Of a DNA stretch of 40,371 nt, positions 24,945 through 27,101 are shown in pieces (the first letter of the stretch is position 1; every line of letters starts with the position of its first letter). The notes beneath the pieces are model-generated. The model was given only the letters and a program-made list of their open reading frames with translations, was not told the DNA's origin and ran no database searches. The translations under genes and the position numbers were made by a program. Location: positions 1 to 40,371 of IMG/VR virus record IMGVR_UViG_3300050133_000052; one strand, given 5' to 3'. Source of the stretch: a virus.

Positions 24945-25501
24945 TCCTCCCCCTCCTTGCTGTTGATGGCGGAGCGGGCCTGCTGGATGAAATAATCCTC
25001 CATTTGCAATGTAGCAAGTGCTTTTTCTATTTTTGTAATAGAAGTTGCTCCCAGTCTATTGTCATGGTTGTCCTCACAAGCTAAACGATATGCCCTATTC
25101 TTAATCTTCAGCGCCTTTGTGAGGGCGGCGTTGTGCTGCTCCAACTTTTTGTAATTCTCGTAGGTTGTGTCATTGGCAACTTTAAGGGCGTGGCTGTAAT
25201 CTTTGAGTGTGGTAATCTCTCTTCTCATAACCTCATATCCTGTTTTTGAGCCATCCAATAAATCGGACTTAAGGGCGGCGTTTTCTTCCTGCATAGCAGT
25301 AATTTGCTCCAACAGGTATTTGATATCATCCGAGGCGCAACATATAAAAACCGCATCGTCATATGAATGCGCTTCTCCAATTTTTAATCTTGTGTCTGGG
25401 TTGCTAAATATTGAGCGGCCCTTTTTAATATTCGGTATATGACACCAATTACCCTGTGTTGCCTTATTCAGCCTCTCGCGGATTTCATCTTCTCTGTTCA
25501 T
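24941..25501 (-). CDS. Ead/Ea22-like coiled-coil protein
   Basis: A 186-residue protein starting MNREDEIRERLNKATQGNW after AGAGAGGGCG; the upstream ATG at 25624 would overlap the previous gene. The N-terminal 70 residues (KATQGNW...DDAVFICCASDDIKYLL) match Ead/Ea22-like phage proteins, and the rest is a long coiled coil. The function in phages is unknown. It overlaps the previous gene by 17 bases and the next by 4. Confidence 0.7.
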   Translation of the reverse strand: MNREDEIRERLNKATQGNWCHIPNIKKGRSIFSNPDTRLKIGEAHSYDDAVFICCASDDIKYLLEQITAMQEENAALKSDLLDGSKTGYEVMRREITTLKDYSHALKVANDTTYENYKKLEQHNAALTKALKIKNRAYRLACEDNHDNRLGATSITKIEKALATLQMEDYFIQQARSAINSKEGEE

Positions 25502-25970
25502 GCTTCGCCCTCTCTTTCTCAATCTCAGCATCCCATTCAAGTGCAGCGGCTTCGCCAAACTCGCGGGTGTAATATGCCTCGTCCTCATAGAGTGCACAAT
25601 AATCTTTTGTGTCGGCATGTCCACATCGGTATAATATTTTCAACTTGCCGTCAATAAGGTGGAGCTCCGCGCATGTGATTTGCCATTCCATTCCGAAGCT
25701 GTCCCAAATAATATCACCGGGTTTGTGCGGCAAAATACGATGTTCCTTTTTTGCCTGTGCGAGGTCGGTGACTTCGGCAGGGGTTAGGTTGGTGTCCTCG
25801 TAGGCGGCAAGGCGTTGGATTGCCATTATTGCAGGGCAGCACTCTAACTGTTCCTTAAAGTTTTTAGCAGGGCAATCTTTACAAAAAATTGTGGCTTTCG
25901 GGTGATGCGGGCAAACGCAATTTAAAAATGATTTGCCGCTTGGTGTAACTTTAGTCAATCTTTCCATCAT
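25485..25970 (-). CDS. hypothetical early phage protein with Cys cluster
   Basis: A 161-residue protein with a Cys-rich N-terminal half (CVCPHHPKATIFCKDCP...CCPA) and the motif AYEDTNLTPAEV typical of small early proteins in Clostridia phages. It starts ATG ATG after GAAGGAG and overlaps the RecU gene end by 4 bases. The N-terminal Cys/His pattern suggests metal binding; function is not known. Confidence 0.65.
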   Translation of the reverse strand: MMERLTKVTPSGKSFLNCVCPHHPKATIFCKDCPAKNFKEQLECCPAIMAIQRLAAYEDTNLTPAEVTDLAQAKKEHRILPHKPGDIIWDSFGMEWQITCAELHLIDGKLKILYRCGHADTKDYCALYEDEAYYTREFGEAAALEWDAEIEKERAKHEQRR

Positions 25971-26449
25971 TCTCCTTCGCCCTCCTTTAAAAATTCTTCA
26001 ATATTCCATCTAAAATGCACTTTCAGTTTTCGTCCTTTGATTTCGCATCCCTCTGTTTCAAACCACGCTATCGGTATAGACTGACGATCCGCGTGTGCAA
26101 GAAAATATTCAACCTTAACTGCCGACACAAAATATGTGCGTTCAACATCACGAAAGTTTACGATAAAGCCGCAAATCATGTTTTTATATGTACTCGCTTT
26201 TGATAATTCCGTGACTTGGTTCTGGCGGATTGCTGAGAACGGTATTGACTTCCCTTTATGGCTTTTCAACTCCAAAAGATAAAGAGTGCCGTTGAAAATC
26301 ATGCAGTCACAAATATTTGTTTGCTGAAATCGGGTGTTTTCTTTATCACCGCCCCAGCTCGCCGTGCCATCTCTAAACCGATAATAAAATATACATTCTG
26401 TATTAATGCTTTCTTTAAAATCCTGCTCAAACTTTTTACCCTCGTTCGT
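25967..26449 (-). CDS. recU-like: RecU-like Holliday-junction resolvase, ACG start
   Basis: A 160-residue RecU-type nuclease that would cut four-way junctions during recombination-dependent replication. It begins ACG-AAC-GAG-GGT (NEGKKFE), then FYYRFRDGTAS, CDC (D48), LELKS (E60, K62) and the Gln of RQNQ (Q78), the acidic-Lys-Gln set of RecU. The frame is open upstream to a stop at 26453 and holds no ATG, GTG or TTG before codon 50. A perfect AAGGAGGG lies 7 bases before the ACG. Starting at ATG 26302 would delete the active-site D48 region, so ACG is the best start. It is translated right after the Lar-like gene. Confidence 0.75.
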   Translation of the reverse strand, partial: TNEGKKFEQDFKESINTECIFYYRFRDGTASWGGDKENTRFQQTNICDCMIFNGTLYLLELKSHKGKSIPFSAIRQNQVTELSKASTYKNMICGFIVNFRDVERTYFVSAVKVEYFLAHADRQSIPIAWFETEGCEIKGRKLKVHFRWNIEEFLKEGEGE

Positions 26450-26452
26450 TTT

Positions 26453-26749
26453 TTAGCCCTCCTTCGTTCTGCGGTTCCATGCGGAAATTGCTTTGGCCTC
26501 TGCCGCAAAAAGTAATACTTTATCCTGTTCTGACACAGAGCTTTCTTTTTGCTTGTAGCAATCATAAGTCGTGTTCACCCATCCTGTAGCAAATACAGGG
26601 CCGCGACCTTTGCATTTATTACAAATTGCCTTAATCAAATATTCTCGTCGCGATTGTCCAACTCCGTTGTATCCTCCAAATAGGTGGTCTTTTGCGCTTA
26701 GTTTGGCTTCCCCTCCACAAAATGGACACGATTTTAATTCATTCAGCAT
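26453..26749 (-). CDS. Lar-type restriction-alleviation-like protein
   Basis: A 98-residue protein with LKSCPFCGGEAKLS near 5-18, ICNKCKGRGP near 45, and AISAWNRR near the end, the layout of Lar-family zinc-ribbon proteins, some of which soften type I restriction. The start at 26749 follows GGGAGG with a spacing of about 9 bases; the upstream start at 26785 lacks it. Its stop is 3 bases before the RecU ACG. Whether it alleviates restriction is inference. Confidence 0.65.
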   Translation of the reverse strand: MLNELKSCPFCGGEAKLSAKDHLFGGYNGVGQSRREYLIKAICNKCKGRGPVFATGWVNTTYDCYKQKESSVSEQDKVLLFAAEAKAISAWNRRTKEG

Positions 26750-27101
26750 TATGTGAAGCCTCCCAAAGATAATCATAAATTTCATGGTGGTAGGGGCTAT
26801 TGTCGGCCTTTGCTACCTGATGACCGCATCTTGCACAATATCCAACTTCCCATAGTTCTGGGTACTCGACTCTATTGCCGCCCCATCGGATAAGTCTGCA
26901 TCCGCACTCCATACAAAATGGTTCATTATCAAGTCCAAATCCGTCATAGATAGTTTTTAAATTTCCTAACAAGTGGATATCTTTAAGCATCCGTTTAATT
27001 TGTGCCTTAGAAATTTTCTCGCCCAAAGCAGCTTTTTTAGCTTTGCGGGGTACTTTGTTACCGTTTATAATTTTATTGTAATATTTTATGCACTGTTTCA
27101 T
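26739..27101 (-). CDS. zinc-ribbon-containing hypothetical protein
   Basis: A 120-residue basic protein starting MKQCIKYYNK after GGGAAGAGG; a longer reading to 27167 lacks a ribosome site. The first 60 residues are Lys-rich (VPRKAKKAALGEKISKAQIKRML), followed by C-x2-C (CMECGC) and C-x2-C (YCARCG) knuckles. Zinc-binding, possibly nucleic-acid-binding; function unknown. Confidence 0.6.
   Translation of the reverse strand: MKQCIKYYNKIINGNKVPRKAKKAALGEKISKAQIKRMLKDIHLLGNLKTIYDGFGLDNEPFCMECGCRLIRWGGNRVEYPELWEVGYCARCGHQVAKADNSPYHHEIYDYLWEASHNAE

Follow-up and report, generated by a model that had tools for sequence, protein, structure and literature searches.

In Streptomyces, the GUC start codon of sigR acts together with IF3 repression to limit SigR, and its replacement by a canonical start leads to overproduction of the protein (PMC5472188); infC, the gene for IF3, itself starts at AUU or AUC (PMC5472188). 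Initiation at CUG in E. coli has been quoted at 0.86% of that at AUG (PMC11497404), and coupling of termination to reinitiation at a distance of +3 nt is described for galT/galK and rplK/rplA in an excerpt of the review PMC12548453. Near-cognate initiation as such is therefore already known (infC AUU, sigR GUC), and the resolvase ACG considered here would be a variant of it. A natural bacterial or phage gene starting at ACG was not found in the open-access literature searched, in which only AAV, herpesvirus, organelle and synthetic cases were encountered. Here, we analyze a RecU-family resolvase gene apparently of this kind in a viral DNA stretch of 40,371 nucleotides (the window), together with its counterparts in related phages.

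The RecU gene and its missing canonical start

The gene is matched by the Pfam RecU family (PF03838; 39.2 bits, E = 9e-10, cut-off 25) and, over residues 2-156, by the Holliday junction resolvase family phrog_843 (E = 2e-30), and a profile of its relatives matches the solved RecU chains 2fco, 1y1o, 1rzn and 1zp7. In an alignment of 19 relatives, G4, K5, F7, E8, S14, D27, D48, E60, L61, K62, S63 and S124 are invariant; the catalytic acidic and lysine residues D48, E60 and K62 are all present and align with the D...E.K region of the RecU structures. Pfam, PHROGs and the alignment thus agree with the earlier note on this DNA, which had placed all RecU landmarks in the one frame. By these sequence criteria, the window gene encodes an intact RecU-type resolvase of a phage, with junction cleavage as its predicted activity.

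Both inspection of the sequence and the start scan confirm the claim that ATG, GTG and TTG are absent from the RecU frame between the upstream stop and codon 50 (Table 1). Read 5' to 3', the junction consists of the end of the Lar gene (AAG GAG GGC TAA), AAA, and then ACG AAC GAG GGT AAA AAG TTT GAG, in which the ACG is aligned, as had been proposed, with the start of the relatives (M-N-x-G-K-x-F-E). The Shine-Dalgarno (SD) sequence AAGGAGGG lies seven bases before the ACG, again as described previously, and the spacing from AGGAGG is 8 nt. The Lar gene itself probably starts at ATG 26749, which has its own SD, within a longest open reading frame that begins at 26785; a Pfam search with the gene downstream of RecU gave no match. 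Among the ~54 minus-strand window genes examined, RecU is the only one that lacks a canonical start.

Table 1. Positions of the RecU gene, its start region and its neighbors in the window.
Feature	Position	Strand	Remarks
RecU-family Holliday-junction resolvase gene	25967..26449	minus	160 codons, ACG to TGA
ACG, inferred start codon of RecU gene	26447..26449	minus	aligned with initiator Met of relatives
D48 codon	26306..26308	minus	invariant; aligns with TD motif of solved RecU structures
First canonical in-frame start of RecU gene (ATG, codon 50)	26300..26302	minus	
E60-L61-K62 (ELKS motif)	26264..26272	minus	invariant
Stop TGA of RecU gene	25969-25967	minus	
SD sequence before RecU ACG	26457..26464	minus	within Lar gene 3' end
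TAA stop of Lar	26453..26455	minus	3 nt upstream of ACG, in RecU frame
Lar-family (restriction alleviation) gene	26453..26749	minus	Pfam Lar E 1.7e-7; phrog_599; start scan
Downstream gene, ATG overlapping RecU stop (ATGA)	25485..25970	minus	function unassigned

Initiation at the ATG of codon 50, to give a truncated protein, is highly improbable: no canonical start precedes it in frame and a gene caller would be expected to pick it, but it has only a weak SD-like match (GTGA) before it, and its use would remove the invariant G4, K5, E8, D27 and D48, the last being the catalytic aspartate whose loss the earlier note had foreseen. Codons 2-49 are conserved as protein, and the whole protein is 63% identical to that of one relative (L001) with synonymous sites saturated.

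The resolvase slot in sister phages

Three sister contigs (L039/G001, L040/G002 and L041/G003), with sample numbers different from that of the window, were fetched by scans with the window DnaB and Lar proteins. No additional sister contigs came from more viral scans, with DnaB and RusA as queries, and a host search that compared the DnaB and portal proteins with relatives of a Peptococcaceae MAG revealed no close prophage. RecU is absent from all three sisters, a RusA-family gene occupies the resolvase slot in each, and the slot thus swaps unrelated families (RecU, RusA and distant RusA) among otherwise related phages.

The starts of these RusA genes are likewise non-canonical. In L040/G002, AAGGAGGGCTAAAAA is followed by ACG AAA ATC AAA TTT ACA ATA CCA, which corresponds to (M)KIKFTIPG, a normal RusA N-terminus, and a canonical start is missing for 11 further codons. 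The 20-mer AAGGAGGGCTAAAAAACGAA around this ACG is identical to that of the window, and L040/G002 provided its only exact viral-contig match among the matches listed (the window's nearest records may be hidden). L041/G003 has CTG at the same position and spacing as the ACG, and in L039/G001 ATT is the start candidate of a RusA-like gene, so that ACG, CTG and ATT differ from ATG at positions 2, 1 and 3, respectively; the spacing from AAGGAG is equal in all four resolvase junctions. The start assignments for L039 and the RusA genes depend on homology over the initial 10-13 residues, and the RusA of L040 and L041 and the RusA-like gene of L039 could in principle start instead at an in-frame ATG 11-13 codons downstream, which has no SD.

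The Lar genes of the window and G003 are 92% identical at the DNA level, and over the 20 nt that surround the start the window matches G002, beyond which its sequence departs into RecU. As the simplest history, the resolvase gene would have been exchanged at its start codon. The ACG is apparently part of the stop/start junction upstream, which a sister phage with a different resolvase has in common with the window, and not part of RecU; the ACG junctions of the window and L040 are probably common by descent, and so would not represent two independent origins.

The earlier note had also raised the possibility of a modified or edited base, which is not needed to explain these starts. C-to-U editing of the mRNA would convert ACG to AUG (or CUG to UUG) and is compatible with both of these sites, and start codons created by editing are described for plant organelles in an excerpt of PMC12548569. 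The ATT of L039, however, is beyond its reach and could not be repaired in this way. C-to-U editing of mRNA is not known to us from bacteria or phages, and this explanation is considered extremely improbable.

Near-cognate starts inside and outside the group

The four genomes (the window and three sisters) were scanned for strong SD sequences upstream of long frames that lack a canonical start, giving six credible genes with non-canonical starts: the four resolvases and a helix-turn-helix (HTH) protein in each of G001 and G002. The HTH protein starts with ACG in both genomes, with no ATG over 10 further codons, and the two proteins are 77% identical (23% different), with dS 0.50 and dN 0.14; the ACG has thus outlasted considerable synonymous change. 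This protein of ~105 aa is encoded at L231:8881-9192 and L232:13272-13592 (sister phages), with the conserved ACG following AGGAGGGCTGAA, and a search of the annotated phage collection found no homologue of it.

SD-linked canonical starts in the four genomes comprise 77 ATG, 8 TTG and 3 GTG, and a genome-wide relaxation of start selection was rejected on the basis of these counts. Under identical filters, SD-linked near-cognate starts amounted to 7/58 in the group (including one that is antisense noise within a long plus-strand gene) versus 9/450 outside it (1.1 Mb), with p = 9e-4 serving as a guide only as the sisters share ancestry. Outside the group, the GGAGGGCTRA junction mostly has ATG or GTG after it, at +10 to +13, whereas within the group ACG or ATT stands at +12 or +13 in 5/5 gene junctions. 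When conserved N-termini were looked for by a homology scan, antisense ORFs dominated the output.

Outside the group, 112/115 RecU and RusA relatives have a canonical start, with ATG, GTG or TTG at or near the aligned site in 35/37 homologous RecU loci and a canonical start in 77/78 RusA genes. The start in the resolvase slot is non-canonical in 4/4 of the group and rarely so outside (Fisher p = 4e-6, again only a guide, the sisters being non-independent). The two RecU exceptions (L036, L038 near 5956) are in Bacillaceae-type genomes and have AUA after AAAGGAG as the best candidate, and L037, their Lysinibacillus relative, has a RecU that starts with ATG. Non-canonical starts therefore exist elsewhere in the RecU family, but rarely. 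The RusA exception (L190:1495) belongs to an unrelated viral contig; its likely start is ATT after AAGGAG. Possible non-canonical starts were also seen in an SSB gene (ATT, L014 near 815) and in another gene (ATC, L011 near 4290).

These results bear on whether the ACG is genuine. A true ATG hidden by an error in sequencing or assembly, or by a minority variant, might be suspected in a metagenomic virus record such as the window, but this is unlikely: an identical ACG junction precedes a different gene in another contig, and there are four further non-canonical starts in the group, including the ACG kept in two HTH genes across a dS of 0.5. That the RecU gene is decaying or untranslated after simple loss of its start is rated as quite unlikely. 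One T-to-C change would suffice, and RecU could be dispensable as the sisters have other resolvases, but 160 codons remain open, every residue invariant among the relatives is kept, and the resolvase genes of the sisters share this kind of start. Both error and recent decay are improbable because the same position would have to be struck in several independent assemblies and genes. For the suggestion in the earlier note that an ATG had mutated to ACG, the recurrence in the group speaks against a fresh accident, while a mutation as the deep origin of the codon possibly stands. The non-canonical resolvase start looks like a real, inherited feature, and not a lone mutation or a sequencing slip.

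Proposed initiation at ACG and comparison with known systems

Taken as a whole, these comparisons make it likely that RecU is translated from the ACG by SD-driven near-cognate initiation, probably through reinitiation and with low output. Use of the ACG as a start, the first option of the earlier note, is the strongly supported part of this reading, as ACG also precedes RusA in one contig and the HTH gene in two, and near-cognate codons fill the resolvase slot in two more. The perfect SD in the last Lar codons would hold the ribosome, Lar translation would end at the TAA 3 nt ahead of the ACG, and fMet-tRNA would pair imperfectly with the ACG (a second-position mismatch), probably by termination-reinitiation. 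The stop-to-start distance is short and the SD lies in the upstream gene (+3 nt in the window and L040, similar in the other sisters), and almost everywhere in the group only a few bases separate the upstream stop from the start; such proximity makes reinitiation by the ribosome that terminates on the upstream gene likely, if less firmly so than the use of ACG itself. Resolvase output may be low because near-cognate initiation is inefficient, and the enzyme would then be scarce and its synthesis coupled to that of the upstream product. The low published efficiencies of non-AUG codons also count against the ACG, as the enzyme may be too scarce unless context or host helps.

Readthrough of the Lar stop, to give a Lar-RecU fusion, is very unlikely. 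The TAA is in the RecU frame, and the Lar and resolvase frames coincide also in L040 and L041. UAA is, however, normally a tight stop, Lar terminates at its usual WNRR end, and readthrough would have no need of a strong SD placed at the spacing of a start. Moreover, the in-frame stretch upstream of the ATT in L039 is only ten codons long and has no start, and the frame upstream of the G002 HTH gene is offset by its stop (TGA-AT-ACG), which together exclude readthrough as the common mechanism.

A frameshift on the slippery A6C (AAAAAAC across stop and start) was rejected as no ATG, GTG or TTG stands at SD distance in any frame, and a single shift is of no help when the Lar frame is already the RecU frame. 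A special initiator tRNA was rejected as well: the window contains no tRNA, and the sisters contain only tRNA-Asn(GTT), in two of them (L248:8681-8755 and L251:17435-17509).

Returning to near-cognate initiation, the persistence of a non-AUG slot (ACG, ACG, CTG, ATT) despite RecU/RusA swaps is a hint that the weak start is being preserved, perhaps by selection, and low dosage would be sensible for nucleases that cut junctions. That the lineage has evolved ACG and near-cognates as a conserved weak-start class for certain genes (the resolvases and the HTH protein) at a transferable junction, GGAGGGCTRAAAA-ACG, acting as a throttle or reflecting a host more tolerant of ACG initiation than model bacteria, can be suggested only tentatively. 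In practical terms, gene callers restricted to ATG, GTG and TTG would miss or shorten resolvase and HTH genes with such starts. Orthologous and analogous genes that differ in their start (ACG, CTG or ATT) but match in its spacing offer a natural series in which the influence of reinitiation, SD strength and IF3 on the stringency of start choice could be probed, and the series bears also on whether phages dose DNA-cutting enzymes through start-codon strength.

As in infC and sigR, a near-cognate codon stands in place of a canonical start, which in those genes limits translation (PMC5472188); unlike them, the present cases comprise phage resolvases and an HTH protein, ACG is the prevailing codon, and the effect is proposed by analogy. 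No link to IF3 is known for these phage resolvase and HTH starts. The stop 3 nt ahead of the start and the SD in the end of the upstream gene resemble galT/galK and rplK/rplA, but here the start is non-AUG, a case that does not appear in the excerpt of the review PMC12548453. Compared with phage RecU resolvases (PF03838, phrog_843), the window gene belongs to the same family and conserves the GK.FE...D...ELKS landmarks, but it lacks the canonical start present in 35/37 relatives. Phage RusA resolvases (PF05866), although an unrelated protein family, occupy the same genomic slot in the sisters and there also begin at a non-canonical start.
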